Of a stretch of DNA of 64,000 nucleotides, positions 6,972 through 32,416 are shown in pieces (within the stretch, counting starts at the first letter, position 1; every line of letters starts with the position of its first letter). The stretch is from Microbotryum silenes-acaulis. Lineage: Eukaryota > Basidiomycota > Microbotryomycetes > Microbotryales > Microbotryaceae. A program made the translations under genes and the position numbers. The DNA lies in the NCBI GenBank assembly GCA_003665825.1, contig QPFY01000006.1, forward strand, positions 1,364,001 through 1,428,000, written 5' to 3'. Under the pieces are notes generated by a model, which saw only the letters and a list, made by a program, of their open reading frames with translations, made no database searches and was not told where the DNA came from.

Positions 6972-7198
6972 TGTTGAATTCCATACACTCTTGCTTAGAT
7001 CAATCTCCAATCCGCGCCGCGCCTAGCTAGCCGCGCCGCTTGGACCTCTCTTTGGACTTAGAGATATTTCGCACACTCGCACTGCGCGCCTCTTTAGTCT
7101 TCCCCCTAACGCTCCAAACTACTCCCTTACAACCCGTACTCTGTCTCGTGTACTTACTGGTTGCCGATCCAGTCCCCTCTCGAGACATACGATTAACA
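6972..7198 (+). repeat. 5' LTR of Cop1a
   Basis: Begins TGTTGAATTCCATAC and ends CATACGATTAACA (TG...CA ends). It matches the 3' LTR at 13610-13836 at every position I compared. Confidence 0.92.
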
Positions 7199-7214
7199 GG
7201 TTATGAGCCCGAGC
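7199..7214 (+). promoter_or_regulatory. Primer binding site: half-tRNA initiator Met
   Basis: GGTTATGAGCCCGAGC directly follows the LTR. Its core is the reverse complement of the anticodon arm of fungal initiator tRNA-Met (GGGCUCAUAACC). This matches the mechanism known for Drosophila copia, where a 5' half of the initiator tRNA cut in the anticodon loop is the primer, not the usual tRNA 3' end. The embedded ATG opens a four-codon frame (M-S-P-S-stop) 16 nt upstream of the pol start. Confidence 0.8.
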
Positions 7215-7230
7215 TAAAGCTGCTCCAACA

Positions 7231-10200
7231 ATGACAGCTCCACTGACGTCATTCGCGACCATCATGATCGTCTTCATCATCATCATCGCACTGTGCCACA
7301 CCCTTGCAACCGCCCTCGCCCACGCAATCGGCCGTTACCGCATCATGACGCAACTTGACACGTCGCACCTGGACCCGACTGTGAGCGTGACAGCCCGGCC
7401 CAGCGTGAACGTCGTTGCACTCCTAGGTCGTCTGAACTCGAACCGGGAGCTTCACCTCCCCAACGACACCCTCGTACTCGACTCGGGCGCCTCCCACCAC
7501 ATGGTCAAGGACGCGTCTCTATTCGACGTCTGGCACACTCGGTCGCACATCGCCGTTGATGGCGCTGGTGGATCACTCATGGCCCAAGGAACCGGCTCGA
7601 TCACGATACGAACGTCGAAACAACGAACGATCAAGCTCTGCAACGTCTACTACGTTCCCGACCTTCCGGCAAACCTGGTCTTGGTCATGCAGCTGCGCCG
7701 CGAGCGCATTTACACCCACTTTGGCAAGACCATCGAGCTCCGGTCACAAGGTCACCTCATAGGCGTCGCATCCCTCATTGCAAACCAATTGTCGACACTG
7801 GACGCCACCCCAATCCGCTGCACACCGTCACCGGTTGCAGCCGCCGCCATCCCTCTCCTGACTCTGCATCAACGATTCGGCCACCTGTCCCTTCCCAACC
7901 TGCGAAGGGCAGTCTCGTCGGGTCAACTACAAGGTCAAACATGGACGTACTCGGCGGCCGAATGCAAGGCCTTCTCCTGCGACACCTGCAAAGCGGCAAA
8001 GGCAACCAGGAAACCTTTCCCAACGTCGGACTCTCGCGCTTCGCAACCACTCGAACTGGTCCACTCCGATGTCCTCACTCTGCCCGAACCAGCCACCAAC
8101 GGGGAACGATATGTTGTCACCTTCATCGACGATTTCTCCCGAAAGACGTGGGTCAGCGCGCTGAGAAACAAGAGTCAAGTCTTCGACACCTTCCAGCGTT
8201 GGCACACCATGATTGAACGCTCAACGGGCCTCAAGCTCCGCACGTTACGAACGGACAATGGCGGCGAATACACGTCCAAAGCCTTCATTGAGTACTGCTC
8301 TCACCACGGCATTACCAAGCAGCTCACAATCCCGTACACCCCGGAGCAGAACGGCCGAGCCGAAAGGACAAACCGCACGATCATCGAGGGGACGATCGCC
8401 CTGCTCCAGCACTCGGGACTGCCCATGACACTCTGGCGAGAGGCCCTCAGGTACGTTGTTGACACCAAGAACCTCAGCCCGCACAGCGCCATCGACCACA
8501 AGATCCCGGACGCTGTCTGGTTTGGCAAACCTCCCAGCACGGCAAACCTGAGGGTATTTGGCTGCCGCGCCTGGCACACCACCCCTCAGCACAAGCGGGC
8601 AAAACTCGACCCCAAGGCCAAACCATTCATCTTTGTTGGCATCGATAACAAATCCAAGGCCTGGACGCTGTACGACTCGGCCACAACTTCGTTCTTCCAG
8701 AGTCGCGACGTCCTATTCGATGAGAAAGTCTTCCCCGCTCGAGATGCCCCGATCAACCAACCGAAACCTCCCATGACGTCCACCACTGGCGACTGGACCT
8801 TTGTTGACGCTGCCCATGGCTCCCGCGCTGCACCACCTCCGTCCCTCCAGCCTGTCGTGCACGAAAATCGATTTGCCGCGCTTGAGACCAACGCGAGTGA
8901 CGACACAACGATCGACATGTCCGACGATGGCTTTGACACACCGTCCGACATGTCCAGGGCTCAGTTCTCGCCATCACCTCCTGCGTCGGACGTGACCGAC
9001 GACTCAGCCGACCCAATCGACTTCTTGTCATGCCCGTCTCGCGCCGCTGCCTTCGCCGCCACCACTGCTGGTTCACCGGTCGTCGAACTCGAAGGGCCAA
9101 CCGAGGACCCCCAAAATTGGTCGCAGGCGGTCAAGTCAGGTAAAGAGGAGATCTGGAGGCAAGCAGCAGCCGATGAGTTTCACTCCCTTGCCACCGAGTA
9201 CAAATGCTTCACCCCGGTCAACTCCTCCTCACTGCCCCCCGGTGCCAAAGTCCTTGGATCCAGGTTCATCTTCCGCACCAAACGCGATCAACTTGGCAAG
9301 ATCACTTCGCACAAGGGCCGGCTCGTTGCACAAGGCTTCTCCCAGCGCCCAGGTATCGATTACGATGAGACGTTTGCTCCTGTTGCCAAGTTCACCTCAA
9401 TCCGAGCTCTCATCGCACTGGCCGCCGCCAAGAACCTCCACGTCCATCAGGCCGACGTTGACAAGGCATACCTCCACGGCGAGCTGAAGGAAGACCTCTA
9501 CATGCGCGTCCCACAAGGTGTTGACATGCCCGGTAAAGTCCTCAAACTCCATCGATCGATCTACGGCCTCAAGCAGGCCGGCCGAGTCTGGAATGAGCAC
9601 ATTGACTTGACGCTGAAGAGCCTCAACTACCGCGCCACAGCCAAGGACCACTGCGTGTACGTACGACGCGACGGCGACCAATACCACTACATCGCCCTCT
9701 ACGTCGATGACTTGCTGATGGTCAGCCCTTCGGAGGACGAGATCGAGCGCATCCTCAACGGCCTGGAGCAAAAATACGGCATCAAGCGACTTGGACCAGC
9801 CCAATACATCTTGGGGATCCAGATCAAACGACAGGCCGACAAGTCCATCATCCTGTCGCAGGAGGCGTACATCACAAGTATCCTCCGCAGATTTGGAATG
9901 TCAGACAGCAGCCCCGCCTCCACGCCCATGGCCCCAAACCGCCAGCTCGAGCATTCGCTCGCGGAACCGTCAAAGATCGCTCAGACGCGCTACATGCAGG
10001 CCATTGGATGCCTCCTCTACGCCGCCACTGGTACTCGCCCAGACATCTCCTACGCCGTTGGATACCTTGCACGCTTCTCTGCCAGTCCCACACCTGAACA
10101 CTGGACGGCCATCAAGACTGTCTTCCGGTACTTACGTGGAACCGCACGTCTGGGACTGCACTACAGCTCTGAACAAGGCAAGTTCTCCGGCTTCACCGGT

Positions 10201-10283
10201 TACTCTGACGCGGACTGGGGAACCTGCACCACGTCATCACGGTCAACCATGGGGTACAGCTTCCACCTGGCTGGCTCCGTTAT
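7231..10283 (+). CDS. Cop1a Pol polyprotein, N-terminal part (no Gag)
   Basis: The first part of a copia polyprotein of about 1,140 residues. Residues 8-30 form a hydrophobic stretch (ATIMIVFIIIIALCH) that looks like a membrane segment or signal anchor. The retropepsin site LVLDSGASHH is at 81-90. The integrase zinc region (HQRFGHL, CDTCKAAKA) is at about 213-262. The catalytic triad is VHSDVL near 277, RTDNGGEY near 339 and the Glu of NGRAERTNR near 373. RT follows, with YVDDLLM near 824. No Gag or CCHC knuckle precedes the protease: only 30 nt separate the LTR and this ATG, and the protease starts about 80 codons later. The frame breaks at 10283 where GagR is inserted (GTTAT duplicated) and resumes at 13215. 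No other stop or frameshift is seen. Confidence 0.9.
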
Positions 10284-11143
10284 TGTTGAATTTCATTCTA
10301 CTACAATCCTTCGAACACTTCAACCTTGCGCCGCAACTTACCCGGCCCGCCCATCTTCTTGCCTCGAGCGCCTTTCGCCTCGGCGCACTCTCGCCTCGGC
10401 GCACTTTCGCCTCGGGCGCCTTTCGCCTTCGCAGCCAAGCCGCCCCCTTGTCTCCGCCTCCGCGCCAGCCTGCTCAACTCACGCTCGCGCGCCGCTGCCT
10501 CCACGCCGGGACTTAGTCAGTCCGCACTCTCCAGCCTAGCCGAGCCAACGCCTCCGCCTCGCCACAGCCAGTTTGCCACCGCCGACCTCATGACCCATCG
10601 GCCATGCAGAACATCGCCCACTCATGATGCCCGCGGTTCGCAACCTGAAGCCTGTCGTCACGGATCGCCTCACTCAACAACTCTGGATCGTGTAGATAAG
10701 TTTCCCCTCGTGTCCGTCGTCCAACACGACACCCCTCAGAGCCTCGATGGTCCACTTGGAGTTCGGTCTTGAAGCTTCGCATTGTGTTAGCCCAGTTTGT
10801 CTTAGCGCGGCCCTTTGCTAAGAACCTCACCCGACTCGCGCGCCCTCGCGCCTCTCTTCCTCTTCTCTACCGCTTCCCAACATTAGCTAGACCGCTAATC
10901 TTCGGTAGAGAACAGGTTAGTTGCAATCACATCAACCGCTTCCCAACATTAGCTAGACCGCTAATCTTCGGTAGAGAACAGATCGCCCAGCCGCACCGCG
11001 TCCGTCTCGTCAGACCGAGCCTGTGCCGCCGCACGACCTCTCCGCCCGGACCGTCCGTCGCAACCTTGCCACGTCGACGCTCCTACAGTAGCCCTAGCGG
11101 TCGCTACGCCAACCTCCCAAGGTCCTGCAGCCTACATTCAACA
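10284..11143 (+). repeat. 5' LTR of GagR
   Basis: Begins TGTTGAATTTCATTC, ends CTACATTCAACA. It carries two tandem copies of a 66-bp unit with a two-tier inverted repeat (first copy about 10867-10914); the 3' LTR has one copy. Confidence 0.9.
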
Positions 11144-11155
11144 GGTTATGAGCCC
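11144..11155 (+). promoter_or_regulatory. Primer binding site of GagR, overlapping the gag start
   Basis: GGTTATGAGCCC immediately follows the LTR and is the same 12-mer as in Cop1. It complements the anticodon arm of initiator tRNA-Met. The ATG inside it (11148-11150) is the first codon of the gag frame and is the complement of the CAU anticodon. Confidence 0.8.
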
Positions 11156-12299
11156 CAATCGACCTGATCTGCCCCGATTCCCTGCAGCACCTGCGAACCC
11201 TACCTCCGACGCCTCCCCGGACGCACCCGAACCCACCACCACCGCTTCTCGCGACGCCGCCGACGCCCCCATGTCCACCTCGAGCCACGTTGACCCCACC
11301 CTGGCGGCCAGTATCGACGAGCGCATACACCTCGAAGTACAACGTCGTCTGCGTGAGTTCACTACCTCCCCGACACCGGCCAACGAACGTAAACCCATCG
11401 TCTACAACATCGATATTCCACGTCACCTCTCAACCTGGCCGGCCGACGCTCTCCTCTCCGGCGTCGAGACCTTCCGAATTTGGGACCGCACGTTACAAGA
11501 CCGCGTTGGCGCCACCATCTACGAGTACATCACGACTGGCACCCTCCCCAACCGTGCGGAAGCCATCGACCACGAAAATGTCGAGATCTTCGCCGTCCGC
11601 CAAGTCTCAGATGGTGTCACCGGAAACGTTCGAAAGTCGCTGCTCACCGTTGCCACCGCCCACCGTCGCGCACAGGCCTACTATGATCACCTAAATCGGG
11701 AGTACAATCCAACGTCGTCACAGTCCACACTCCGTCTGCTCCACTCGTTCTTCAACATTCCGCGCGCACCTATCGAGGAGAAGGGCTTCGTCGAATGGAT
11801 GGCCGAATTCCTCAACCAGTCAGCCTGCCTCGAATCAGCCCAAATCACGATAATGGACGTCATCACGGCTCGAGCTCTCACCCTGATCCCCGACGAACTG
11901 GACGCATTCCGCCAATACATGGAGCTCCACAACACCGACCAGCTACCGACCCCGGCAAACCTCATGACCCTTGCACACAAGCAAGTCAAGAACCACCACG
12001 ACACTCGTAACACTGGCCCGAACGTAACCGCATTTGCGGCAGCATCACCATCGTCATCTCGTCCCTCGCAACAGTCTCCAGCTAAGTTTCCCTGCCCCGC
12101 CTGCAACAACGGCGTGCATCGAGTACGACACTGCCCCGACGACGCCGCCCGCCAACGTTACATCGAGCGACGCCACGGACACCAACGTCACACCACGGCC
12201 CCAACCATTACCGCACCGGAGGGCGCACCCGTCGTAGGCACAATCTCACGGTTCCAAGAACTCCCGGATCCCTCGACGGCCGGCGGCCAAAATTGGTAA
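11148..12299 (+). CDS. GagR Gag protein with CCHC knuckle
   Basis: A 383-residue open frame. A Pro/Ala/Thr-rich leader (1-60) is followed by a helical copia-type Gag region (about 75-290, compare the UBN2 Gag family: ETFRIWDRTL, LLHSFFNIPR, EWMAEFLNQS). A single CCHC knuckle with perfect C-X2-C-X4-H-X4-C spacing (CPACNNGVHRVRHC) lies at about 322-335. The predicted role is nucleocapsid and virus-like particle formation. The first ATG is in the primer binding site; the next in-frame Met is at residue 42, so a later start is possible. The frame ends 117 nt before the 3' LTR and no further coding sequence is seen. Its partner Pol would have to act in trans; Cop1 is the best candidate because the cis signals match. 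Confidence 0.85.
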   Translation: MSPNRPDLPRFPAAPANPTSDASPDAPEPTTTASRDAADAPMSTSSHVDPTLAASIDERIHLEVQRRLREFTTSPTPANERKPIVYNIDIPRHLSTWPADALLSGVETFRIWDRTLQDRVGATIYEYITTGTLPNRAEAIDHENVEIFAVRQVSDGVTGNVRKSLLTVATAHRRAQAYYDHLNREYNPTSSQSTLRLLHSFFNIPRAPIEEKGFVEWMAEFLNQSACLESAQITIMDVITARALTLIPDELDAFRQYMELHNTDQLPTPANLMTLAHKQVKNHHDTRNTGPNVTAFAAASPSSSRPSQQSPAKFPCPACNNGVHRVRHCPDDAARQRYIERRHGHQRHTTAPTITAPEGAPVVGTISRFQELPDPSTAGGQNW

Positions 12300-12406
12300 A
12301 GTCCGCACTCCGCCCAACACCCAGGTCCCCCTTACACCGGTCACTGCCTCGTCGATTACACCACTTGCTACAACCTCCTTTCGTGCTCTTCTGGAAGCGT
12401 TCGAAC

Positions 12407-12415
12407 GAGGGGGGG
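12407..12415 (+). promoter_or_regulatory. Polypurine tract of GagR
   Basis: GAGGGGGGG abuts the 3' LTR. With flanks it reads CGAGGGGGGGTGTTGAATT, the same as in Cop1a (13599-13617); only one position differs over 25 bases. Confidence 0.85.
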
Positions 12416-13209
12416 TGTTGAATTTCATTCTACTACAATCCTTCGAACACTTCAACCTTGCGCCGCAACTTACCCGGCCCGCCCATCTTCTTGCCTCGAG
12501 CGCCTTTCGCCTCGGCGCACTCTCGCCTCGGCGCACTTTCGCCTCGGGCGCCTTTCGCCTTCGCAGCCAAGCCGCCCCCTTGTCTCCGCCTCCGCGCCAG
12601 CCTGCTCAACTCACGCTCGCGCGCCGCTGCCTCCACGCCGGGACTTAGTCAGTCCGCACTCTCCAGCCTAGCCGAGCCAACGCCTCCGCCTCGCCACAGC
12701 CAGTTTGCCACCGCCGACCTCATGACCCATCGGCCATGCAGAACATCGCCCACTCATGATGCCCGCGGTTCGCAACCTGAAGCCTGTCGTCACGGATCGC
12801 CTCACTCAACAACTCTGGATCGTGTAGATAAGTTTCCCCTCGTGTCCGTCGTCCAACACGACACCCCTCAGAGCCTCGATGGTCCACTTGGAGTTCGGTC
12901 TTGAAGCTTCGCATTGTGTTAGCCCAGTTTGTCTTAGCGCGGCCCTTTGCTAAGAACCTCACCCGACTCGCGCGCCCTCGCGCCTCTCTTCCTCTTCTCT
13001 ACCGCTTCCCAACATTAGCTAGACCGCTAATCTTCGGTAGAGAACAGATCGCCCAGCCGCACCGCGTCCGTCTCGTCAGACCGAGCCTGTGCCGCCGCAC
13101 GACCTCTCCGCCCGGACCGTCCGTCGCAACCTTGCCACGTCGACGCTCCTACAGTAGCCCTAGCGGTCGCTACGCCAACCTCCCAAGGTCCTGCAGCCTA
13201 CATTCAACA
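12416..13209 (+). repeat. 3' LTR of GagR
   Basis: Same ends as the 5' LTR, but with one instead of two copies of the 66-bp hairpin unit (about 13000-13046). Confidence 0.9.
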
Positions 13210-13214
13210 GTTAT

Positions 13215-13587
13215 CTCCTGGTCCTCCAAAGTGCAAAACCGAGTGGCCGACTCCACCACAGACGCCGAGTACCTCGCCCTCTCGCATGCCTCGAAGGAAG
13301 CTGGCCACCTCCAAGAACTACTTATGGAGCTGGGCATCGACATCCAAGCTCCCGTCCAACTTTACGGCGACAACCAAGGAGCACTGGCTCTCGCCAAGAA
13401 CCCCACCCTTCACCACCGGTCCCGACACATTCGCATTCGCGAACATTTCGTACGCGACCAGGTCAGGCTGGGCACCATTCGAGTCGACTATGTGGACACG
13501 AAAACCATGGTCGCCGATATCTTCACCAAGGCACTTGGGCCTTTAGTGTTCAAGGTTCATCGTGAGAACCTGGGTCTCCGAGGCTAA
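13215..13587 (+). CDS. Cop1a Pol, C-terminal part (RNase H)
   Basis: It continues the Cop1a frame after Gag[21 protein letters not shown], the copia RNase H block with the ADS..DAEY motif, then the terminal [12 protein letters not shown] block (IREHFVRDQV) and [10 protein letters not shown], ending in a stop at 13585-13587, 14 nt before the polypurine tract. The codon interrupted by the insertion is restored if one copy of GTTAT is discounted. Confidence 0.9.
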
Positions 13588-13600
13588 GTAAGCTTCGAGC

Positions 13601-13609
13601 GAGGGGGGG
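13601..13609 (+). promoter_or_regulatory. Polypurine tract of Cop1a
   Basis: GAGGGGGGG directly before the 3' LTR at 13610. It is shared with GagR. Confidence 0.85.
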
Positions 13610-13836
13610 TGTTGAATTCCATACACTCTTGCTTAGATCAATCTCCAATCCGCGCCGCGCCTAGCTAGCCGCGCCGCTTGGACCTCTCTTTGGACTTAGA
13701 GATATTTCGCACACTCGCACTGCGCGCCTCTTTAGTCTTCCCCCTAACGCTCCAAACTACTCCCTTACAACCCGTACTCTGTCTCGTGTACTTACTGGTT
13801 GCCGATCCAGTCCCCTCTCGAGACATACGATTAACA
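13610..13836 (+). repeat. 3' LTR of Cop1a
   Basis: 227 bp, same sequence as the 5' LTR, followed by the target duplication AGACG. Confidence 0.92.
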
Positions 13837-14221
13837 AGACGTGTATCGGCGCCGGCCGAGTAGAGCAGAGCAAGGATACCCTCTTTGATGGTCCGATTGG
13901 TGCGTTCAACACGTCCGTTTTGTTGAGGCGTGTACGGAATAGTGAGTTCGCGACGGATGCCCTTGGTCAAACAGAAGTCGACAAAGTTGCGCAGAGTGAA
14001 CTCGCCACCATTGTCAGAGCGAATGGTTTTTACCCGATCACCCGTGGTGTTTTCTACCTCAAGAATCCAGTCGCGGAGACGGTGAAAGACGTCGCTCTTG
14101 TAAGTGAGGAGGATGCACCAATGTTTGCAGGTGTAGTCGTCGACAATCACAAGCATGTAGCGATGACCGCCAAAGCTGGCTCGAGGCATTTGGGCAACGT
14201 CGACATGGACAAGGTCCAGAC
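13837..14221 (-). pseudogene. CopB integrase core fragment
   Basis: The reverse strand encodes a Ty1/copia integrase core: LVHVDVAQM (first Asp), IRSDNGGEF (second Asp) and NGRVERTNR (Glu), ending ALLYSAGADTR at the Cop1a insertion site. It continues at 6971 downward. The upstream end is lost at the Gyp2 LTR. The coding sequence has no stops in the visible part. Confidence 0.82.
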
Positions 14222-14796
14222 TGTCAGGATGACGGCGGTACACTGACAGCAGTACTCAAAGGAAGTCCTCCCCGAGGTTGTGTGCAGGTAGCGATGACTT
14301 GACCCAATGGCGGAATTGTTTCAAGCATCGCGGGCGTCGTGGTGTAGCCGTTTGGCGTGTGGGCGCGCACCCGCTGGTTGCAGGTTCGATGCGCTGCGAG
14401 CGCAATCTTCTTTCGATTTGTTTTATCTTTTTTTTGCTAGCTGAGGCGCGGCCTCAGGGTTTTTACCGGTGCTCCCGCGAGCAATCCTTTTTACCCCTGA
14501 GGCGACCTCTTGGAGTAGTTTGATTTGGCTGAGTTCCCTCGGCGCCTGGGCAGTCCCTCCCTTCGGTTTCGACACCTTCCCCTGGAGCCTGGTCCGCTCA
14601 TCATCTTATTGGCCCCCCCCCCTCTCCTTGCCGATTGTTGGAATAAAGTCCGTTATACTTGACTTCCCGCGAGCTTTTCGGTCGACACCCCTCTTCGATC
14701 GCTCCCTCGTCGACTGCCGCCACCACAGCCGATACTCCTCGACGCCCCCATCCTTCGTCGTGTAGACGACGTCATCCCCGCCGACGTCGCCTGTCA
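14222..14796 (+). repeat. 5' LTR of chromovirus Gyp2
   Basis: Ends GACGTCGCCTGTCA at 14796. The start is ambiguous. TGTCAGGATGAC occurs at 14222, but those bases also fit the CopB coding sequence, and the LTR sequence proper is unambiguous from about 14244 (TGACAGCAGTACTC). Either a 14-bp insertion lies near the LTR start or the junction formed at a shared short sequence. Confidence 0.75.
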
Positions 14797-15072
14797 CTTT
14801 TTTCAAGTCCGGCATCGCCAACAACGATCAGAACCTCTACAAGTGCTAAGTCCCATACCCTGGACGAGCAGTCACCCCCGCTGTCTGATCTCGAGTCGTC
14901 AGCCTCCTCCCCGTTGCCGAACTCATCCCCCACGAACGCGTCACTGTCTTTCGTGACCTCCTTCACCGAGTCCGACGGCGAACGCGTTCTTCCCTCCTAC
15001 CCTTTCTTCCAGCCATCTCGCCCTCGCCACCGTTCACCCCGGAATCACCGACCGTTGAATCGCGAGCTCGCC

Positions 15073-16346: not shown

Positions 16347-18023
16347 ATGTCCGACCAGGCACCGCCTGATCCGGGCCGCGGCCCTCCGGAGCCGGCAGCG
16401 ACGGGACAACCACGTGGTGACGCGGGGGCGGAAGCCGATGCCGCCGAGGGACCAGCGAACCCCGGCCTAGCGCTGTACCAGGAAAAGCGTGATGAAGAAA
16501 AGAAGAGGAAAGAGGATGTCGCGAGAATCCTGAAGATGATCAGTGTCGAAGATGGCACACGCCAGGGCACCCGCATCCTTGTGCTCAAAGACGCACTCGG
16601 CTTCGGCAAGGACCGGGCCACCTCCCTGCGCTTCAGCGCACTCAATGCAACGAAACCAATTACCGACACGTCTGGTGCCGTTCTGGAAGTCACGTTCGAA
16701 CACACCGGCGTGGCCACCGAACGCGAGAAGTCCGAGTTGTACTCGAAGGTGCTCCGTACCCTGTCGCCCGACACGTCGTTGTGTTTTAACCTGCCCGCAG
16801 GAGTTGTCCTCCCGCCCGAGCTCCAGAAATACGCTCCAATCATCCATGGAGTCGCACCGGAATCGATCATCCAAAGCGGTAACACCCGGTTCAAGTTCGT
16901 GGTGCGCTGCGCTAGCGCAGCGGCGCTCGACCAAGTCCACGACGCGGCGACCAAGATCGAGTGGAAACGCTCCTTTGCCCAAGTCCGCAAGCGCTTGGCG
17001 TTCGTCAAAAACGTCGTCGAACTGCGTTTCATTATCAGTCCTGAGGCCGAATACACGAACGACGACCTCTGGAACAAACTGCAAGGCGTCGTCGCCAAGC
17101 TTACCGGGGACGGCCACAAGTGCGACTTGCTCCAACTCCAGCAGCCTCTAACGGTCGTTCAAGGCTCGTACCTCGTCGCTCGAGGAAACTACGCGGCCAT
17201 CGTCCAGTTCGACGACGACGACCTGTTCAAGAAGAACGCATCTCCCACAAGGGACACTAACAACTCACCACGAGTCTACCCTACTCGTTCACAAAGCTCT
17301 ACACCCATAGCATCCGCCCCTCGCGGTTTCATCGTCGCCGCAAACCCATTCGCAAGTCTGGCCGGCGACGTAGCCGAGGAGGCGCAGGAGGAGCCCGCTC
17401 AGGCCCTCGAGGACGACGAGGACGCGATGAGCGTAGTCGAGGCACAGCTGGAACAACAGCAGGAAGTGCCGCCGCTGGAGCTTTCGGATCTGTCGGATCT
17501 GCAGGACCGCGGAGCGGAGGGGAACCAGGGGGAACACACGGAGACGAGTGACGCGGAAGAAGGGGAATCGCAGTCGGCCGAGACGGGGTCTGTGCCTGAG
17601 ATTGTTTCGACGACTCCTGAGCATACCCCTGAGCTGACGCGCTCCCGATCGGCCAGTCACCATCAGCTTGATATGGACGGCCTTCCCGACGACTGGATGA
17701 ATCGTGTGTCGGATCGCGAGCGCAAACAGGATGCTGGTCTATACGATGAGATCACCGAGTTGGACCGCACCCCGTCTGTGACCGGTTGGATGCCTTCGCC
17801 GTCTCCAGGTCCAGTGTTTGATCCCGAGCCCGAGCCCAAGCAGGAGGTGGACGAAGGAAGTTCCCAGGGTCTTCGCCGGTCCGAGCGTATCCAGCGTCTC
17901 ACCAGCGTCGCGCGCACATCGGACTGGAACGAATCGACTGCTGCGGACCCGCTCCCCTCACCCACATTCGGACCTATGTTGTCCATCAAGGGAGCTGCTG
18001 CTGCAACGAAGGCGCGATCGTAA
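16347..18023 (+). CDS. Line1 ORF1 protein
   Basis: A 558-residue protein in the ORF1 (Gag-like) position. A Pro/Gly/Ala-rich start is followed by a charged helix (EKRDEEKKRKEDVARIL, about 49-65). A globular region with no motif I recognise spans about 70-290, and a long acidic, Ser/Gln-rich low-complexity tail with basic patches (LRRSERIQRL) follows. There is no CCHC zinc knuckle, unlike many LINE ORF1 proteins. The role in RNA binding is inferred from position only. Its stop TAA at 18021-18023 overlaps the ORF2 start as TAATG. Confidence 0.85.
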   Translation: MSDQAPPDPGRGPPEPAATGQPRGDAGAEADAAEGPANPGLALYQEKRDEEKKRKEDVARILKMISVEDGTRQGTRILVLKDALGFGKDRATSLRFSALNATKPITDTSGAVLEVTFEHTGVATEREKSELYSKVLRTLSPDTSLCFNLPAGVVLPPELQKYAPIIHGVAPESIIQSGNTRFKFVVRCASAAALDQVHDAATKIEWKRSFAQVRKRLAFVKNVVELRFIISPEAEYTNDDLWNKLQGVVAKLTGDGHKCDLLQLQQPLTVVQGSYLVARGNYAAIVQFDDDDLFKKNASPTRDTNNSPRVYPTRSQSSTPIASAPRGFIVAANPFASLAGDVAEEAQEEPAQALEDDEDAMSVVEAQLEQQQEVPPLELSDLSDLQDRGAEGNQGEHTETSDAEEGESQSAETGSVPEIVSTTPEHTPELTRSRSASHHQLDMDGLPDDWMNRVSDRERKQDAGLYDEITELDRTPSVTGWMPSPSPGPVFDPEPEPKQEVDEGSSQGLRRSERIQRLTSVARTSDWNESTAADPLPSPTFGPMLSIKGAAAATKARS

Positions 18024-23464: not shown

Positions 23465-23504
23465 GAGGACTTCCTTTGAGTACTGCTGTCATCCTGACAG
23501 GCGC

Positions 23505-23664: not shown

Positions 23665-23978
23665 TATAAGATGATCACCACTACTGTCAGGAGAGGTTGA
23701 GAGTCGAACAGAAGTGATGAGAAGGAAGCTAAGAAACAGAAAGGGGGCCCGCGCTGGGATAGGCCCAGGCGCGGGTGAAATCGCTGGCGCGCTAAGGCAG
23801 TCGCGCGCGTCTAAGTCGCCACTGCAGGGGGGCGGCCCAGCGGTCGCGCGCCCGAATCCGCCGACGCCGGCGCGCTGAGGCAGTCGCGCGCGTCTAAGTC
23901 CCCTCCGCAAGGGGGCGGGCTAGCGGGCGCGCGCAACGACCGAGGCGCCCCTGTCGAGCTGAGAGTGGACTCTTCCCA
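23665..23978 (-). repeat. 3' LTR of CopC (inverted)
   Basis: Reads on the minus strand from TGGGAAGAGTCC (at 23978) to GATCATCTTATA (at 23665). It contains two tandem, diverged units of about 83 bp around GGCGCGCTRAGGCAGTCG. Outer ends are confirmed by the solo copy at 35390-35702. The next sequence toward 23990 is a C-rich run, the polypurine tract on the minus strand. Confidence 0.85.
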
Positions 23979-26684
23979 CCCCCCCCCACGCGAATGCGAG
24001 GCAGACCCAAGCCGCGGGTGTCGAGTGCGAAGGCCGAGGGCGTGGCAGTGCGTCGAGAACACCTTAGGGCCGAGAGCCTTGGTGAAGATGTCGGCCACCA
24101 TGTCGCTAGTTCCCACATGCGAGAGTGAGATGTCGCCCCGATTCACCATGTCCCGAACGAAGTGCTCGCGCAAGCGTATGTGTCGAGTGCCGGAGACGCG
24201 GACAGGGTCGTGAGCGACTGCTGCAGCGGCTTCGTTGTCAGTAAATATGTGAGCCGGTGCAACAGGGTGGACATGGAGCTCTTCGAGCAGCTGACTGAGG
24301 TATATCCCTTCCTTGCCAGCATGCGAGAGGGCGAGGTATTCAGCGTCGGTGGTGGAATCAGCGACTCGAGATTGACGCTTGGACGACCAGGACACGGCGG
24401 ATCCGGCAATGTAAAAGACGTAACCCATGGTGGACACCGAGGTATCGACGCAGGCCCCCCAATTCGCGTCGGAGTAGCCTACCACACCCGTGATGCGTGT
24501 CTTGCCGCGAGCATAGAGCAGTTCATCGCGATACGTGGCCCGGAGATAGCGCAGGACGTGCTTGACCGCGATCCAATGACGACGTCCGGGATTGTTGGCG
24601 AAGCGGGCCAGGTAGGACACGGCGAAGGCGATGTCGGGGCGAGTGCCAAGCGAGATGTAGAGGAGCGAGCCGATAGCCTGCAGATACCATGACCGGATCC
24701 GTTCGGTGCCTTGACCCGGGATGGCGGTGAGCGAAAGGCCGGGAGTCATCGGGACTGTAGTGCCGCGAGTTGTGGTGTCGAAGTGGAACCGAGCGAGCAC
24801 GTCCATGATGTACCGCTCCTGGGACAGGGCGATAGAACCGTCGTCGAGCCGCCTGATCTGGATGCCGAGGATGTACTCTGCCGGGCCGAGGCGCTTGACT
24901 CCGTAGCGTTGTTCGAGGCCCGAGATGACACGTTCGATTTCGGCCAGGTCCGGGCTGATCATCAGAAGGTCGTCGACGTACAGCGCAATATAGTGTGGGC
25001 GTTGCTGATCGTCGAGCCGAGAGTACACGCAGTGATCGGTGCCCGTCGCCGTGTAACCGAGGTTGCGAAGCGAAGCATCGATGTGTCGATTCCAGATGCG
25101 GCCAGCCTGTTTGAGCCCGTAGATGGAACGTCGCAAGCGGAGCACCTTGTCGCCAGGGAGGTCGAAACCGCGCGGTGCCGTCATCCAGATGTCGTGATCA
25201 AGGTCGCCATGAAGGTAGGCTTTGTCGATGTCCGCTTGGTGCACATGCAGGCCGTTGGCGGCCGCCAGCGCGAGGAGTGAGCGTATCGAGGAGAAGCGTG
25301 CTACCGGTGCGAACGTTTCGTTGAAGTCGATGCCGTCGCGTTGGCGGTTGCCTTGCGCCACCAGCCGTGCCTTGTGTCCAGTGACTTCGCCGAGAGCGTT
25401 CCGTTTCGTCTTCCAGACGAACTTGGATGTGACGATGGTCGCACCCGCCGGCACCGTGGATCGGTCCTCGATAGTGAAGACCTTGAAGTTGTCGCGCATG
25501 GAGGTGAATTCGTCGTTGGCAGCTTTGGCCCACACTTCACGCTTGTCGCTCGACATCGCCTCGCGCCAGGTCTGTGGGTCGCTCGTGATGGACTTGACTG
25601 GCTGGATGGCCTCAGCGTCAGAGGTGTCGTCGTCGGTCGCGATGAAAGCGCGGTGGTGTCGGGTGAGGAAATCGATTTCGTCCGGCGATTCGTCGCGAGA
25701 GTGGCGCCCAAGGAGGTCGAGTTCGTCGGGCGACTCCTCAGCCGATGCGGCCTCGCGGTACGTGCTGAAGTCCGGGCGGTGCATGTCCAGTAGGTCGAGG
25801 CGAACCTGGGGCTGTGAGCCAATGAGGTCGAGAGGATCGGCCGAGTCTTCAGAGTCGGTTGGTAAGGCCGAGGGTGACGATGACGCCGCCAACGACGGTG
25901 AGAGCGCAGGCGATGGCGCAGGCGACGGTGACGAGGGCGGCGCAGGAGACGGTGACGAGGACGGCGCAGGCGACGGTGACGAGGATGATTCGGCATCTGT
26001 GGAGTTAAGTAAGGTTCCGCCAGTGTACCCTGGGGCCACGTCAACGGCGCTCATGGCAGAATCATCAAGGGGGGATGAGACGTCCATGTGCGCCGACCTT
26101 ACTAGTGGGGTCCATGTCTTGACAACGGCTTGAGATTCGGTGGTCGATGAAGCGCTGGCGAAGTGCGTATCGACGTCGTGCTCGGTGGAGCCGCCATGTA
26201 ATCCGGGGAATTCAGTGTCGAGGAACGTGGCATTTCTGCCCAGAATGATCTTCTTTGTCGTAGTGTCGTAGAAACGGAAGGCTTTAGAAGCCAGGTCGTA
26301 GCCGGTGAAGAGAACGCGAACCGCTTTCGGGTCGAGTTTCGAGCGAAGTTCGGGCGCGACCGTGAGCCAAGCTGTGCAGCCGAACGGGTGAAGCGCCGAG
26401 GCGTTGGCGCGGTCGCCCTGCCAGACGGAGTTCGGTGTTGCCTTGTCCAGGGCCGAGTGTTGACACAGGTTCTTGCAGTATACGAAATAGGCTGCGGCCT
26501 CCTCCCAGAATGTCTTGGGTAAATGTGCGTCCGCAAGAAGCGCGAGAACGCTTTCGACGATGGAACGATTGACCCGCTCCGCACGACCGTTCTGTTGAGG
26601 CGTGCGTGGGATAGAGTATTGTCGCCGTGTGCCGCGTGCCTTGCAGAACTCCGTGAACGCTCTCGAACAATATTCGCCACCGTT
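23979..26684 (-). pseudogene. CopC pol fragment: integrase end, RT and RNase H
   Basis: A Ty1/copia polyprotein on the minus strand, open from 26684 without stops. It starts inside the integrase core at [10 protein letters not shown], with [12 protein letters not shown] carrying the catalytic Glu. A linker with acidic and SPSPAPSS repeats follows. The RT has YVDDLLMIS and the RNase H has [10 protein letters not shown] and [10 protein letters not shown]. Integrase N-terminus, protease and Gag are missing: at 26685 it is cut by Cop1b. No stop codon precedes the 3' LTR; the frame runs through the polypurine tract and ends inside the LTR at 23811. It is about as long as expected for the retained domains. 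Confidence 0.85.
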
Positions 26685-26911
26685 TGTTAATCATATGTCT
26701 CGAGAGGGGACTGGATCGGCAACCAGTAAGTACACGAGACAGAGTACGGGTTGTAAGGGAGTAGTTTGGAGCGTTAGGGGGAAGACTAAAGAGGCGCGCA
26801 GTGCGAGTGTGCGAAATATCTCTAAGTCCAAAGAGAGGTCCAAGCGGCGCGGCTAGCCAGGCGCGGCGCGGATTGGAGATTGATCTAAGCAAGAGTGTAT
26901 GGAATTCAACA
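26685..26911 (-). repeat. 3' LTR of Cop1b
   Basis: Reads TGTTGAATTCC (at 26911) to GATTAACA complement at 26685 on the minus strand. Directly preceded on that strand by GAGGGGGGG. Confidence 0.9.
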
Positions 26912-26933
26912 CCCCCCCTCGCTCGAAGCTTAC

Positions 26934-28997
26934 TTAGCCTCGGAGACCCAGGTTCTCACGATGAACCTTGAACACTAAAGGCCCAAGTGCCTTGGTGAAG
27001 ATATTGGCGACCATGGTTTTCGTGTCCACATAGTCGACTCGAATGGTGCCCAGCCTGACCTGGTCGCGTACGAAATGTTCGCGAATGCGAATGTGTCGGG
27101 ACCGGTGGTGAAGGGTGGGGTTCTTGGCGAGAGCCAGTGCTCCTTGGTTGTCGCCGTAAAGTTGGACGGGAGCTTGGGTGTCGATGCCCAGCTCCATAAG
27201 TAGTTCTTGGAGGTGGCCAGCTTCCTTCGAGGCATGCGAGAGGGCGAGGTACTCGGCGTCTGTGGTGGAGTCGGCCACTCGGTTTTGCACTTTGGAGGAC
27301 CAGGAGATAACGGAGCCAGCCAGGTGGAAGCTGTACCCCATGGTTGACCGTGATGACGTGGTGCAGGTTCCCCAGTCCGCGTCAGAGTAACCGGTGAAGC
27401 CGGAGAACTTGCCTTGTTCAGAGCTGTAGTGCAGTCCCAGACGTGCGGTTCCACGTAAGTACCGGAAGACAGTCTTGATGGCCGTCCAGTGTTCAGGTGT
27501 GGGACTGGCAGAGAAGCGTGCAAGGTATCCAACGGCGTAGGAGATGTCTGGGCGAGTACCAGTGGCGGCATAGAGGAGGCACCCAATGGCCTGCATGTAG
27601 CGCGTCTGAGCGATCTTTGACGGTTCCGCGAGCGAATGCTCGAGCTGGCGGTTTGGGGCCATGGGCGTGGAGGCGGGGCTGCTGTCTGACATTCCAAATC
27701 TGCGGAGGATACTTGTGATGTACGCCTCCTGCGACAGGATGATGGACTTGTCGGCCTGTCGTTTGATCTGGATCCCCAAGATGTATTGGGCTGGTCCAAG
27801 TCGCTTGATGCCGTATTTTTGCTCCAGGCCGTTGAGGATGCGCTCGATCTCGTCCTCCGAAGGGCTGACCATCAGCAAGTCATCGACGTAGAGGGCGATG
27901 TAGTGGTATTGGTCGCCGTCGCGTCGTACGTACACGCAGTGGTCCTTGGCTGTGGCGCGGTAGTTGAGGCTCTTCAGCGTCAAGTCAATGTGCTCATTCC
28001 AGACTCGGCCGGCCTGCTTGAGGCCGTAGATCGATCGATGGAGTTTGAGGACTTTACCGGGCATGTCAACACCTTGTGGGACGCGCATGTAGAGGTCTTC
28101 CTTCAGCTCGCCGTGGAGGTATGCCTTGTCAACGTCGGCCTGATGGACGTGGAGGTTCTTGGCGGCGGCCAGTGCGATGAGAGCTCGGATTGAGGTGAAC
28201 TTGGCGACAGGAGCAAACGTCTCATCGTAATCGATACCTGGGCGCTGGGAGAAGCCCTGTGCAACGAGCCGGCCCTTGTGCGAAGTGATCTTGCCAAGTT
28301 GATCGCGTTTGGTGCGGAAGATGAACCTGGATCCAAGGACTTTGGCACCGGGGGGCAGTGAGGAGGAGTTGACCGGGGTGAAGCATTTGTACTCGGTGGC
28401 AAGGGAGTGAAACTCATCGGCTGCTGCTTGCCTCCAGATCTCCTCTTTACCTGACTTGACCGCCTGCGACCAATTTTGGGGGTCCTCGGTTGGCCCTTCG
28501 AGTTCGACGACCGGTGAACCAGCAGTGGTGGCGGCGAAGGCAGCGGCGCGAGACGGGCATGACAAGAAGTCGATTGGGTCGGCTGAGTCGTCGGTCACGT
28601 CCGACGCAGGAGGTGATGGCGAGAACTGAGCCCTGGACATGTCGGACGGTGTGTCAAAGCCATCGTCGGACATGTCGATCGTTGTGTCGTCACTCGCGTT
28701 GGTCTCAAGCGCGGCAAATCGATTTTCGTGCACGACAGGCTGGAGGGACGGAGGTGGTGCAGCGCGGGAGCCATGGGCAGCGTCAACAAAGGTCCAGTCG
28801 CCAGTGGTGGACGTCATGGGAGGTTTTGGTTGGTCGATCGGGGCATCTCGAGCGGGGAAGACTTTCTCATCGAATAGGACGTCGCGACTCTGGAAGAACG
28901 AAGTTGTGGCCGAGTCGTACAGCGTCCAGGCCTTGGATTTGTTATCGATGCCAACAAAGATGAATGGTTTGGCCTTGGGGTCGAGTTTTGCCCGCTT
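26934..28997 (-). CDS. Cop1b Pol, C-terminal part (RT and RNase H)
   Basis: The same protein as Cop1a downstream of TPQHKRAKLD, with RT (YVDDLLM) and RNase H ([20 protein letters not shown]; Cop1a has VADIF, so the conserved Asp is changed here). Stop at 26934-26936. It joins 30236-31592 across the solo LTR with target duplication GTGCT. Confidence 0.9.
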   Translation of the reverse strand, partial: KRAKLDPKAKPFIFVGIDNKSKAWTLYDSATTSFFQSRDVLFDEKVFPARDAPIDQPKPPMTSTTGDWTFVDAAHGSRAAPPPSLQPVVHENRFAALETNASDDTTIDMSDDGFDTPSDMSRAQFSPSPPASDVTDDSADPIDFLSCPSRAAAFAATTAGSPVVELEGPTEDPQNWSQAVKSGKEEIWRQAAADEFHSLATEYKCFTPVNSSSLPPGAKVLGSRFIFRTKRDQLGKITSHKGRLVAQGFSQRPGIDYDETFAPVAKFTSIRALIALAAAKNLHVHQADVDKAYLHGELKEDLYMRVPQGVDMPGKVLKLHRSIYGLKQAGRVWNEHIDLTLKSLNYRATAKDHCVYVRRDGDQYHYIALYVDDLLMVSPSEDEIERILNGLEQKYGIKRLGPAQYILGIQIKRQADKSIILSQEAYITSILRRFGMSDSSPASTPMAPNRQLEHSLAEPSKIAQTRYMQAIGCLLYAATGTRPDISYAVGYLARFSASPTPEHWTAIKTVFRYLRGTARLGLHYSSEQGKFSGFTGYSDADWGTCTTSSRSTMGYSFHLAGSVISWSSKVQNRVADSTTDAEYLALSHASKEAGHLQELLMELGIDTQAPVQLYGDNQGALALAKNPTLHHRSRHIRIREHFVRDQVRLGTIRVDYVDTKTMVANIFTKALGPLVFKVHRENLGLRG

Positions 28998-29002
28998 GTG
29001 CT

Positions 29003-30230
29003 TGTTGAATTGCATTCTGTCAAGCCTTCGAACACTTCGACATCGGACCGCCGTTTGACGGACTTGCCCGCCTTTCGCCTCGGCGCCTCGCTCCGCGCGT
29101 CTTCGCCTCCGCAAGCCTCCACCGCGCCCCCTGTCCCTCGAGCCTCGCTGCATGATCCTCGCACCCGGCCTCGTCCCTCGACCGATGTGCACCGCTCGTC
29201 AACTTGTCCACATCCCGGTCCGTCTGCCCGTCGTTGCCAGCTTTGCCTACTCTGCCATGCTCGCCACCACGCGCCTTTGCCTCTTGGCACTTTCACCTCG
29301 GCGCCTTTTTCGCCGCCGCGCGCCTTCGCAGCCAAGCCGCCCCCTTGTTCACCGCCCAGTTTTCGCCTCGGCGCCTCTTTCGCCGCCGCGCGCCTTCGCC
29401 TCGGCGCCTTCGCCCTCGCTGCCAAGCCGCCCCCCAGTCTTTCGCCTAGGCGCCTTCGCCTTCGCCGCCTTCGCCGCCCCCCCCCTCCAGTCTTTCGCCT
29501 AGGCGCCTTCGCCTTCGCAGCCAAGCCGCCCCCTTGTCTCCGCCTCCGCGCCAGCCTGCTCAACTCACGCTCGCGCGCCGCTGCCTCCACGCCGGGACTT
29601 AGTCAGTCCGCACTCTCCAGCCTAGCCGAGCCAACGCCTCCGCCTCGCCACAGCCAGTTTGCCACCGCCGACCTCATGACCCATCGGCCATGCAGAACAT
29701 CGCCCACTCATGATGCCCGCGGTTCGCAACCTGAAGCCTGTCGTCACGGATCGCCTCACTCAACAACTCTGGATCGTGTAGATAAGTTTCCCCTCGTGTC
29801 CGTCGTCCAACACGACACCCCTCAGAGCCTCGATGGTCCACTTGGAGTTCGGTCTTGAAGCTTCGCATTGTGTTAGCCCAGTTTGTCTTAGCGCGGCCCT
29901 TTGCTGGAACCTCACCCGACTCGCGCGCCCTCGCGCCTCTCTTCCTCTTCTCTACCGCTTCCCAACATTAGCTAGACCGCTAATCTTCGGTAGAGAACAG
30001 GTTAGTTGCAATCACATCTACCGCTTCCCAACATTAGCTAGACCGCTAATCTTCGGTAGAGAACAGATCGTCCAGCCGCACCGTGTCCGTCTCGTCAGAC
30101 TGCGTCCGTGCCGCCTCACGACTTCTCCCCCCGGCCCGTCCGTCGCACACTGTAGCCACGTCGACGCTCCGCCAGTAGCCCAAGCGGTCGCTACTCCCAA
30201 GTCCGAAACCTTTTCGGCTTCCACTCAACA
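29003..30230 (+). mobile_element. Solo LTR of family A inside Cop1b
   Basis: 1,228 bp, TGTTGAATTGCATTC to CACTCAACA, target duplication GTGCT (28998-29002 and 30231-30235), opposite in direction to Cop1b. Almost identical to 3300-4528, with one C fewer in a C run and a few substitutions. It holds two copies of the 66-bp hairpin unit. Confidence 0.93.
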
Positions 30231-30235
30231 GTGCT

Positions 30236-31592
30236 GAGGGGTGGTGTGCCAGGCGCGGCAGCCAAATACCCTCAGGTTTGCCGTGCTGGGAGGTTTGCCA
30301 AACCAGACAGCGTCCGGGATCTTGTGGTCGATGGCGCTGTGCGGGCTGAGGTTCTTGGTGTCAACAATGTACCTGAGGGCCTCTCGCCAGAGTGTCATGG
30401 GCAGTCCCGAGTGCTGGAGCAGGGCGATCGTCCCCTCGATGATCGTGCGGTTTGTCCTTTCGGCTCGGCCGTTCTGCTCCGGGGTGTACGGGATTGTGAG
30501 CTGCTTGGTAATGCCGTGGTGAGAGCAGTACTCAATGAAGGCTTTGGACGTGTATTCGCCGCCATTGTCTGTTCGTAACGTGCGGAGCTTGAGGCCCGTT
30601 GAGCGTTCGATCATGGTGTGCCAACGCTGGAAGGTGTCGAATACTTGACTCTTGTTTCTCAGCGCGCTGACCCACGTCTTTCGGGAGAAATCGTCGATGA
30701 AGGTGACAACATATCGTTCCCCGTTGGTGGCTGGTTCGGGCAGAGTGAGGACATCGGAGTGGACCAGTTCGAGTGGTTGCGAAGCGCGAGAGTCCGACGT
30801 TGGGAAAGGTTTCCTGGTTGCCTTTGCCGCTTTGCAGGTGTCGCAGGAGAAGGCCTTGCATTCGGCCGCCGAGTACGTCCATGTTTGACCTTGTAGTTGA
30901 CCCGACGAGACTGCCCTTCGCAGGTTGGGAAGGGACAGGTGGCCGAATCGTTGATGCAGAGTCAGGAGAGGGATGGCGGCGGCTGCAACCGGTGACGGTG
31001 TGCAGCGGATTGGGGTGGCGTCCAGTGTCGACAATTGGTTTGCAATGAGGGATGCGACGCCTATGAGGTGACCTTGTGACCGGAGCTCGATGGTCTTGCC
31101 AAAGTGGGTGTAAATGCGCTCGCGGCGCAGCTGCATGACCGAGACCAGGTTTGCCGGAAGGTCGGGAACGTAGTAGACGTTGCAGAGCTTGATCGTTCGT
31201 TGTTTCGACGTTCGTATCGTGATCGAGCCGGTTCCTTGGGCCATGAGTGATCCACCAGCGCCATCAACGGCGATGTGCGACCGAGTGTGCCAGACGTCGA
31301 ATAGAGACGCGTCCTTGACCATGTGGTGGGAGGCGCCCGAGTCGAGTACGAGGGTGTCGTTGGGGAGGTGAAGCTCCCGGTTCGAGTTCAGACGACCTAG
31401 GAGTGCAACGACGTTCACGCTGGGCCGGGCTGTCACGCTCACAGTCGGGTCCAGGTGCGACGTGTCAAGTTGCGTCATGATGCGGTAACGGCCGATTGCG
31501 TGGGCGAGGGCGGTTGCAAGGGTGTGGCACAGTGCGATGATGATGATGAAGACGATCATGATGGTCGCGAATGACGTCAGTGGAGCTGTCAT
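30236..31592 (-). CDS. Cop1b Pol, N-terminal part (protease and integrase)
   Basis: Starts at 31592 with MTAPLTSFATIMIVFIIII, the same hydrophobic leader as Cop1a, then DSGASHH protease and the integrase (HQRFGHL, VHSDVL, RTDNGGEY, NGRAERTNR). No Gag upstream: the primer binding site and LTR start 17 nt before the ATG. The frame breaks at the solo LTR after RAWHTTPQH. Confidence 0.9.
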
Positions 31593-31608
31593 TGTTGGAG
31601 CAGCTTTA

Positions 31609-31624
31609 GCTCGGGCTCATAACC
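31609..31624 (-). promoter_or_regulatory. Primer binding site of Cop1b
   Basis: Minus strand GGTTATGAGCCCGAGC directly after the 5' LTR, the same as in Cop1a and Cop1c. Confidence 0.8.
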
Positions 31625-31851
31625 TGTTAATCGTATGTCTCGAGAGGGGACTGGATCGGCAACCAGTAAGTACACGAGACAGAGTACGGGTTGTAAGGGA
31701 GTAGTTTGGAGCGTTAGGGGGAAGACTAAAGAGGCGCGCAGTGCGAGTGTGCGAAATATCTCTAAGTCCAAAGAGAGGTCCAAGCGGCGCGGCTAGCTAG
31801 GCGCGGCGCGGATTGGAGATTGATCTAAGCAAGAGTGTATGGAATTCAACA
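31625..31851 (-). repeat. 5' LTR of Cop1b
   Basis: 227 bp, with TGTTGAATTCC at 31851 and ATTAACA at 31625 on the minus strand. Confidence 0.9.
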
Positions 31852-32156
31852 TGCCAGACGTCGAAGAGAGACGCGTCCTTGACCATGTGGTGGGAGGCGC
31901 CCAAGTCGAGTACAAGAGTGTCGTTGGGAAGGTGGAGTTCACGGTTCGGTTGTAGACAACCTAGGAGTGCGACGACGTTCACGCTGGGCCGAACTGTCAC
32001 GCTCACAGTTGGGTCCAGGTGCGACGTGTCAAGTTGCATCATGGTGCGGTAACGGCCGGTCGCATGGGCGAGGGTGGTTGCAACAGTGTGGTATAGGGCG
32101 ATGATGATGACGAAGACGATCATGACGGTCGCAAGTGACGATGGTGGTGGTGGCAT
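31852..32156 (-). pseudogene. Cop1c leader and protease fragment (diverged copy)
   Basis: A diverged relative of Cop1, starting at 32156 with MPPPPSSLATVMIVFVIII. The hydrophobic leader is conserved despite many base differences, and no Gag precedes the protease. The protease motif reads LVLDLGASHH, so the Ser after the catalytic Asp is replaced by Leu. It stops at FDVWH where Cop1b begins. This third copy shows that absence of Gag is an old trait of the family and not a recent deletion. Confidence 0.82.
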
Positions 32157-32187
32157 CGTGGAGCAGCTTTAGCTCGGGCTCATAACC

Positions 32188-32416
32188 TGTTAAGTCGTAT
32201 GTCTCGAGAGGGGACTGGATCGGCAACCAGTAAGTACACGAGACACAGTACGAGTTGTGGGAAGTATATTGGAGCGTTAGGGGAAAGACTATAAGAGGCA
32301 CGCAGTGCGAGTGCGCGAAATATCTCTAAGTCCAAAAGGGGTCCAAGCGGCGCACGGCTGGCCAGACTGGGCGCGAGTTGGAGATCGACCTAAGCAAGAG
32401 TGTATGGAATTCAACA
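32188..32416 (-). repeat. 5' LTR of Cop1c (diverged)
   Basis: About 229 bp, clearly related to the 227-bp Cop1 LTR but with scattered substitutions and small indels. TGTTGAATTCC at 32416 on the minus strand, and a primer binding site (GGTTATGAGCCCGAGC) at 32172-32187. It has landed inside a CopC LTR. Confidence 0.85.

Follow-up and report, generated by a model that had tools for sequence, protein, structure and literature searches.

Cop1 and GagR, a Gag-less and a Gag-only copia family with common end signals in Microbotryum silenes-acaulis: possible segments of one split retrotransposon system

The stretch of Microbotryum silenes-acaulis DNA analysed here (the window: 64,000 nucleotides, positions 1,364,001 to 1,428,000 of contig QPFY01000006.1, referred to as C6, in assembly GCA_003665825.1) carries two families of retrotransposons, Cop1 and GagR, between which the genes of a copia element are divided. 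Cop1 encodes the enzymes (Pol) and GagR encodes Gag alone. In the 29.85-Mb genome, which is assembled in 88 contigs, many of them small and repeat-filled, the division of the genes, the common end signals, the intact and selected reading frames and recent GagR insertions were established, and both proteins were found in two more species. On balance we lean, with slightly better than even confidence, towards regarding Cop1 as the Pol segment and GagR as the Gag segment of a single split copia system. An earlier note on the window had proposed that each family would need the other; its account of the split genes and end signals was supported, and the mutual need is something we infer from the sequences.

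One line of evidence for this reading is the junction between the polypurine tract (PPT) and the long terminal repeat (LTR), where the earlier note had seen a likeness in the polypurine region and the outer LTR ends. The Cop1 and GagR junctions align over 34 columns with two substitutions and one gap (score 24), whereas either of them scores 10-12 against each of the copia families F1, F4 and F5. The same junction, in the form GAGGGGGGG followed by TGTTGAATTNCAT, is also present in a third family, termed mini. A genome search with the pattern GAGGGGGGGTGTTGAATTYCAT at up to two mismatches found 70 sites (39 Cop1-type, 21 GagR and 10 mini), with none in the backward control. Of the 39 junctions ending in TTCCAT, 34 have a same-strand match to the reverse transcriptase (RT) domain RVT_2 in the 2 kb upstream and four have none, a provisional number given that the pairing used 46 of at least 150 RT matches (the Cop1-like ones and a few others); the remaining site belongs to the window copy Cop1a, whose RT lies beyond a nested GagR. 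In three of the 34 (C3, C8 and C55) the RT is unusually distant and scores lower; these may be fragments or belong to another family. All 21 junctions ending in TTTCAT have the end of a gag 109-111 nucleotides upstream, and the ten ending in TTGCAT have neither gag nor RT among the matches listed. When the Cop1-type junctions were linked to Pol starts, 21 led to a start that was read, four to one listed but unread and 14 to none within 3-9 kb. No Gag-Pol element carrying the shared junction was found among the 70 sites, these 14 being without an identified Pol start. The junction, unlike the primer binding site (PBS), is specific among the families read and is taken here as evidence of partnership. 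Exact matches to the LTR end with the PBS numbered 39 (23 GagR, nine mini, five Cop1 and two unassigned), so that some Cop1 LTRs have the same 3' end as those of GagR; a further 17 sites with one mismatch comprised ten Cop1, one GagR, one mini and five unassigned, the last including the window fragment Cop1c.

Cop1a occupies positions 6972-13836 on the plus strand, and its 227-nucleotide LTRs (6972..7198 and 13610..13836) are identical, as had been claimed, with the target-site duplication (TSD) AGACG on both sides. The PBS and leader follow at 7199..7230; the PBS complements the anticodon region of an initiator-type tRNA-Met, and its AUG opens a four-codon upstream open reading frame (uORF), MSPS. 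The first part of the Pol open reading frame (ORF; 7231..10283) encodes a hydrophobic N-terminus and protease-like, integrase, SH3-like and RT regions, with no Gag by Pfam, while the remainder of the element (13210..13609) holds the RNase H end of Pol, the 3' leader and the polypurine tract. The Pfam domains of Cop1 Pol are Pol_BBD (residues 82-158), rve (271-371), SH3_retrovirus (431-502) and RVT_2 (667-901), and this copia order of protease, integrase and an RVT_2-type RT places Cop1 in the Ty1/copia superfamily.

A genome search with the first 390 residues of Pol gave at least 107 matches, 35 of which spanned the whole query, and the DNA at the 5' end was read for 30 of these 35. The family has its PBS immediately after the LTR and then a single Pol frame. 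No Gag of its own was found upstream of Pol in any of the 30 loci, as the earlier note had claimed from the window; in every one the Pol AUG lies 27-31 nucleotides past the PBS AUG, and there is thus no room for a Gag. The PBS AUG opens the four-codon uORF in 28 loci and a 52-codon overlapping uORF in two. The LTR measures 227-229 nucleotides in 17 of the loci and 288-308 in seven, its start motif not being found in six. Frames of 1,141-1,150 residues are open in 15 of the 35 whole-query copies, and frames of at least 1,097 residues in 21. With its LTRs, PBS, PPT and intact Pol frame, and no gag in the copies read, Cop1 can be classed, as a sequence, with Gag-less Pol elements of the Tos17 type. 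It was also observed that the N-terminus of Pol (window 7231-7450) has a hydrophobic stretch of about 20 residues, which recurs in proteins of two named species (P0007 and P0127) despite the faster evolution of this part.

GagR is nested inside Cop1a at 10284-13209 on the plus strand and is flanked by the TSD GTTAT. It consists of a 5' LTR of 860 nucleotides (10284..11143), a Gag ORF of 383 residues (11148..12299) and a 3' LTR of 794 nucleotides (12416..13209), which is preceded by CGAGGGGGGG; 66 gap columns are the only difference between the two LTRs. The sole product is a Gag with a CCHC pattern, read by eye as C-x2-C-x4-H-x4-C. Its Pfam match is weak (Retrotran_gag_4, E 0.007, below the cut-off); the protein does match other Gags, among them that of F1 (best E 4e-18, 25% identity), where Gag and protease share one frame, and the description of GagR as a Gag-only element was upheld. 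The genome search, in which 107 of 368 first-look candidates were scored, gave at least 109 matches: 21 near-full copies in two groups (seven at 95-100%, the GagR1 type, and 14 at 75%, GagR2), eight fragments and 80 distant matches at 21-28% identity, several of which are in frames with Pol. Nineteen of the 21 near-full copies are stop-free; intact frames are present in both families. The Gag lies between two LTRs in 17 of the 21, those with both LTRs within reach; these LTRs are 794-885 nucleotides long, and the Gag AUG lies in the PBS. LTRs flanking a single Gag ORF, without Pol domains, make GagR an element of the TR-GAG type, and no related autonomous element in its family was found among the 70 junctions or the 39 exact LTR-end/PBS sites (two unassigned).

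The mini family was read in one copy (L079), which has a GagR-type LTR, the PBS and an internal region of 871 nucleotides. A short frame there begins like Gag and then diverges, and neither gag nor pol was recognized in that copy, no Pfam scan of its ORF having been made. The distance from PBS to junction is 553-569 nucleotides in all ten pairs. Judging from this one internal region, mini would be a short non-autonomous element resembling terminal-repeat retrotransposons in miniature (TRIM), with LTRs, PBS and PPT and no Gag or Pol domain.

As for the PBS itself, it complements the 5' half of a tRNA-Met gene of the initiator type on C12 (locus L075), which has an 18-nucleotide intron after position 37 and an A:U first pair. 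The earlier note had listed the shared PBS among the signs of partnership. Its presence in both families was borne out, and its value as evidence was rejected, because the same PBS follows the LTR in F1, F3 and F4 and, in a base-changed form, in F5. In the GagR locus L013, the Cop1 loci L056 and L065 and an F4 element in L069 the PBS is extended to about 33 nucleotides. Recombination between Cop1 and GagR was considered as the source of this extension and dismissed; the extension equals the complement of the 5' half of the tRNA-Met, therefore does not demonstrate template switching, and was most likely copied from the primer tRNA. In L013 (C5:1600705-1601853) the first Gag codons give way, in frame, to this extension (MSPTSYQLLQ compared with MSPNRPDLPR), and the tRNA primer thus appears to be the source of a part of this Gag. 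In GagR (11148) and in the F1 loci L036-L038, Gag begins with a codon complementary to the CAU anticodon of the primer; F5 (L074) has ATA there. Half-tRNA priming, with a PBS that pairs with the anticodon arm of initiator tRNA-Met, is known in Drosophila copia and in Ty5, which are alike in PBS type but, unlike the present pair, are complete elements carrying Gag-Pol whole.

Since the families with a PBS read use the same tRNA half, primer use would be no barrier to borrowing, and the two families might be independent parasites, GagR borrowing the Pol of full-length copia elements through Gag co-assembly and Cop1 borrowing a Gag, with LTR ends that are inherited or convergent. Possible donors are numerous, F5 (frames of 1,591 residues) lying in the same clusters and F7 (Gag and Pol matches in one frame of 1,425 residues) in the arms; in rice, moreover, Lullaby and Tos17 have the PBS region in common and not the integrase signal, according to the published account (PMC3977881). 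We nevertheless consider this explanation unlikely, if a serious one, in that the 34-column junction is present in Cop1, GagR and mini and not in F1, F4 or F5, the F7 sites are located apart from the GagR sites, and the Gag of the F7 relative P0009, a stand-in for that of F7 itself, reaches no more than 6.5 bits against the GagR profile, with filters off. No full-length element was found to fit GagR better than Cop1 does; one that did would speak against the pairing. The nearest candidate, F7, has the LTR start TGTTGAGTT and lies outside the Cop1/GagR clusters, and its relative P0009 belongs to another Pol clade. The LTR start TGTTGA was tried as a mark unique to Cop1 and GagR and rejected, as F7 and P0009-type elements begin with TGTTGAGTT or TGTTGAAGT. 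Ten of the 14 F7-type sites were confirmed, and one of the other four reads TGTTGATTT.

Sites were counted as clustered when they lay within 100 kb of an F5 copy, with one F4 match added as a marker on C6; copies are not independent in this test. By this measure 36 of 39 Cop1, 18 of 21 GagR and nine of ten mini sites are in clusters, compared with one of the 14 F7-type sites and none of ten other one-mismatch sites (seven of these at P0009-type elements). The clusters may be centromeres, given that 77-94% of centromeric transposable elements in Microbotryum belong to copia and Ty3, as stated in a published survey (PMC10502011).

GagR evidently moved very recently. The LTR pairs of all 14 GagR2 copies are identical over 885 nucleotides, and these copies form six single insertions and four dimers (LTR-gag-LTR-gag-LTR), with matching outer 5-bp TSDs in all ten units, all mutually different. 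The dimers (C7:1594456/1596630, C18:54567/56741, C19:37675/39849 and C34:19741/21915) have a common middle LTR and one TSD per whole dimer; a mini pair at C37:16023/17602 shows the same spacing pattern. Both LTRs are within reach in three of the seven GagR1-type loci, with a TSD in one, that of the window. Recent movement had been claimed for Cop1 too, and here TSDs were found at two of the four copies scored (AGACG at Cop1a and TCACG at C7:1524k); a matching TSD was absent at C12:1130k (GATGG/GTGTG) and at Cop1b. The latter (26685..31851, minus strand) has two differences between its LTRs and the flanks TGGCA and AACGG, and is split by a mini solo LTR (29003..30230, plus strand, TSD GTGCT). 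It was inserted into Cop1c (31852..32416, minus strand), a diverged 5' fragment comprising LTR, PBS and Pol N-terminus. A second Cop1 with a GagR downstream at near-equal offset (C6:1356393 and C6:1360294), about 15 kb upstream of the nested pair in the window, is apparently a segmental duplicate of that pair.

Both coding parts are evidently under purifying selection, as judged from the ratio of nonsynonymous to synonymous substitution rates (dN/dS). This ratio is 0.16 between GagR1 and GagR2, at dS 0.97, and 0.10-0.32 among 13 Cop1 copies (pairs with more than 20 changes), with L055 as an outlier at 0.54-0.66. The first 71 codons of Cop1 are less constrained than the rest (0.35-0.54 against 0.09-0.20 in four comparisons). 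That Cop1 is dead and seen only through segmental duplication, GagR alone being active, is accordingly hard to credit and is given almost no weight: the likely duplicate upstream and the two copies without matching TSDs would fit it, but the identical LTRs and TSD of Cop1a, the TSD at C7:1524k, the 15 copies with frames of 1,141-1,150 residues and the low dN/dS would not.

Both halves were found in M. saponariae (P0001 and P0002 for Gag, P0007 and P0008 for Pol) and, as partial proteins, in M. silenes-dioicae (P0003 and P0006, and P0127). The best named matches of the GagR Gag are four M. saponariae proteins at 57-81% and two of M. silenes-dioicae at 76% and 58%, over 65% and 49% of the length, respectively. 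Cop1 Pol is matched at 87-89% in M. saponariae and at 79% in M. silenes-dioicae over an N-terminal part of 455 residues, while M. intermedium has only more distant Pols (40-46%) and no GagR among the matches listed. GagR2 groups with an M. saponariae Gag (96/87), which suggests that the Gag lineages predate the split from that species.

These relatives also bear on a third explanation, that GagR and Cop1 are complementary deletion derivatives of an autonomous Gag-Pol element bearing this LTR, which would be absent from the assembly, overlooked by the searches or recently lost. Room for it is left by the many small, repeat-filled contigs, by the Cop1-type junctions for which no Pol start (14) or no RT within 2 kb (four) was identified, and by the two unassigned LTR-end/PBS sites, the RT and Gag counts being lower bounds. 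We nonetheless hold it to be improbable. All 41 RT matches of at least 225 bits, among those listed, are within frames of at most 1,150 residues, although an unread copy could have its Gag in another frame; Gag-less N-termini recur in the proteins of M. saponariae and M. silenes-dioicae (gene models possibly cut); and the GagR lineages are old. The genome search advised in the earlier note, for a Cop1 copy with an upstream Gag, likewise found none in the 30 loci read or at the 70 junction sites.

A profile of the GagR Gag gave 21 matches at E up to 10 among about a hundred Gag regions. The best was P0015, a Gag-Pol protein with 55% identity to Cop1 in its best Pol stretch; P0029, P0016, F1 and F3 came next, and no match was obtained in P0027 or P0030. 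In the Pol tree Cop1 falls in a 12-member clade (100/99) with P0015, P0018, P0026 and the F1 group, the P0009 clade being outside. The Gags nearest to GagR and the Pols nearest to Cop1 thus come largely from the same elements, P0029 and P0022 being exceptions, and the ranking by the Gag profile is in broad agreement with the Pol tree. Phylogenetic congruence as a proof of common descent from one element was not claimed, as the Gag tree lacks resolution. Structure prediction for Gag from seven sequences had a mean predicted local distance difference test score (pLDDT) of 36.5 and gave no usable model.

How a split system of Cop1 and GagR might work can be outlined. Cop1 RNA would yield protease, integrase and RT/RNase H, and GagR RNA a capsid protein packaging Cop1, GagR and mini RNAs together with the separately made Pol. 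The initiator-tRNA half would prime all of these RNAs, and Cop1 Pol would process, reverse-transcribe and integrate Cop1, GagR and mini by way of the shared LTR ends, mini with its same junction being a satellite passenger. The PBS AUG, as the Gag start in GagR and the start of a four-codon uORF before Cop1 Pol, could allow Gag to be made in quantity and Pol sparingly, no frameshift being needed. Co-packaging, the use of Cop1 enzymes by GagR and of GagR Gag by Cop1, and this control of dosage are what we infer. There is perhaps an even chance that the whole represents a segmented-genome retrotransposon of several Microbotryum species, in which one Pol segment, a pair of old Gag segments and a satellite that codes for nothing would be separate LTR elements held together by shared replication signals, with no autonomous form left.

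Several observations weigh against such a system. Beyond their ends the LTRs of Cop1 and GagR are dissimilar, an LTR-wide BLAST finding nothing beyond 13 matching nucleotides at the terminus and fragments no better than chance. At the assigned sites no LTR type goes with the coding content of another, and there is thus no recombinant as evidence of co-packaging. The two GagR lineages, GagR1 and GagR2, are old (dS 0.97) and the sampled Cop1 copies, L055 aside, young (dS <0.12), so there is no one-to-one co-divergence. Two of the better GagR-profile matches, P0029 and P0022, fall outside the 12-member Pol clade of Cop1, and approximately unbiased (AU) tests on Gag reject no placement (p 0.387 for the congruent one, 0.138 and 0.401 for two others). 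Gag or Pol could also come from the many coexisting copia copies whose long frames, at 1,395-1,591 residues, are of Gag-Pol size. The weakest step is the entry of unfused Pol into particles, for which the scheme has no explanation.

Other repeats share the window. A LINE-like (long interspersed nuclear element) unit at 16347-22063 (plus strand) has an ORF of 558 residues and then one of 1,346 residues with endonuclease and RT domains, with one base in common. A further copia Pol fragment with RVT_2 (758 residues) lies at 23811-26087 on the minus strand, a second mini solo LTR at 3300..4528 on the plus strand (TSD GACTT), and at 4532-6253 (plus strand) an ORF that by eye resembles a gypsy-type integrase ending in a chromodomain-like region. 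Scanning window positions 1-34000 against Rfam gave no matches. Elsewhere, RVT_2 matches every 6.04-6.06 kb (one step doubled) at C3:12806-43799, near the contig start, suggest a tandem array of copia units.

Elements resembling either half have been described singly. Tos17 of rice is an active copia element that has a Pol ORF, lacks gag in both of its genomic copies and needs Gag in trans; the full Gag-Pol element Lullaby is its proposed donor (PMC3977881). Cop1 is like Tos17 in bearing Pol without gag, but the donor of Tos17, as there described, shares the PBS and not the integrase signal, whereas the candidate donor of Cop1 is the Gag-only GagR, sharing the PPT/LTR ends. BARE-2 of barley is a Gag-defective, Pol-bearing subfamily that has lost the Gag start codon through an 8-bp deletion; its RNA goes into the particles of its close relative BARE-1, on which it depends (PMC3735527). 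BARE-2 thus keeps gag and an autonomous relative, whereas Cop1 has just 27-31 nucleotides between the PBS AUG and the Pol AUG, does not belong to the BARE-2 type, and has no autonomous relative with the same LTR that was found. TR-GAG elements of plants are LTR elements with a single Gag ORF, one of which transposes in Arabidopsis ddm1 (PMC8704663 and PMC6022998); the mobile one is described as having, within its subfamily, a relative that is highly similar and potentially autonomous, whereas the closest relative of GagR found by end signals is Pol-only. No report of Pol-only and Gag-only families as mutual partners was found in literature titles and abstract openings, mostly outside subscription journals.

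In multipartite viruses and their satellites, genes are divided over separately packaged units with non-coding hangers-on. The genes of Cop1 and GagR are divided alike, but here the segments are integrated retrotransposons with putative co-packaging. The usual picture of selfish elements is one of autonomous masters accompanied by parasites. If Cop1 and GagR do form one split system, capsid and enzyme genes would move separately, and the multipartite organisation known from viruses could arise inside a genome; this would raise the testable question of how, with no Gag-Pol fusion, Pol reaches the particles and the Gag:Pol ratio is fixed. For annotation it would call for caution, as copies labelled non-autonomous may be the sole working form of a family.

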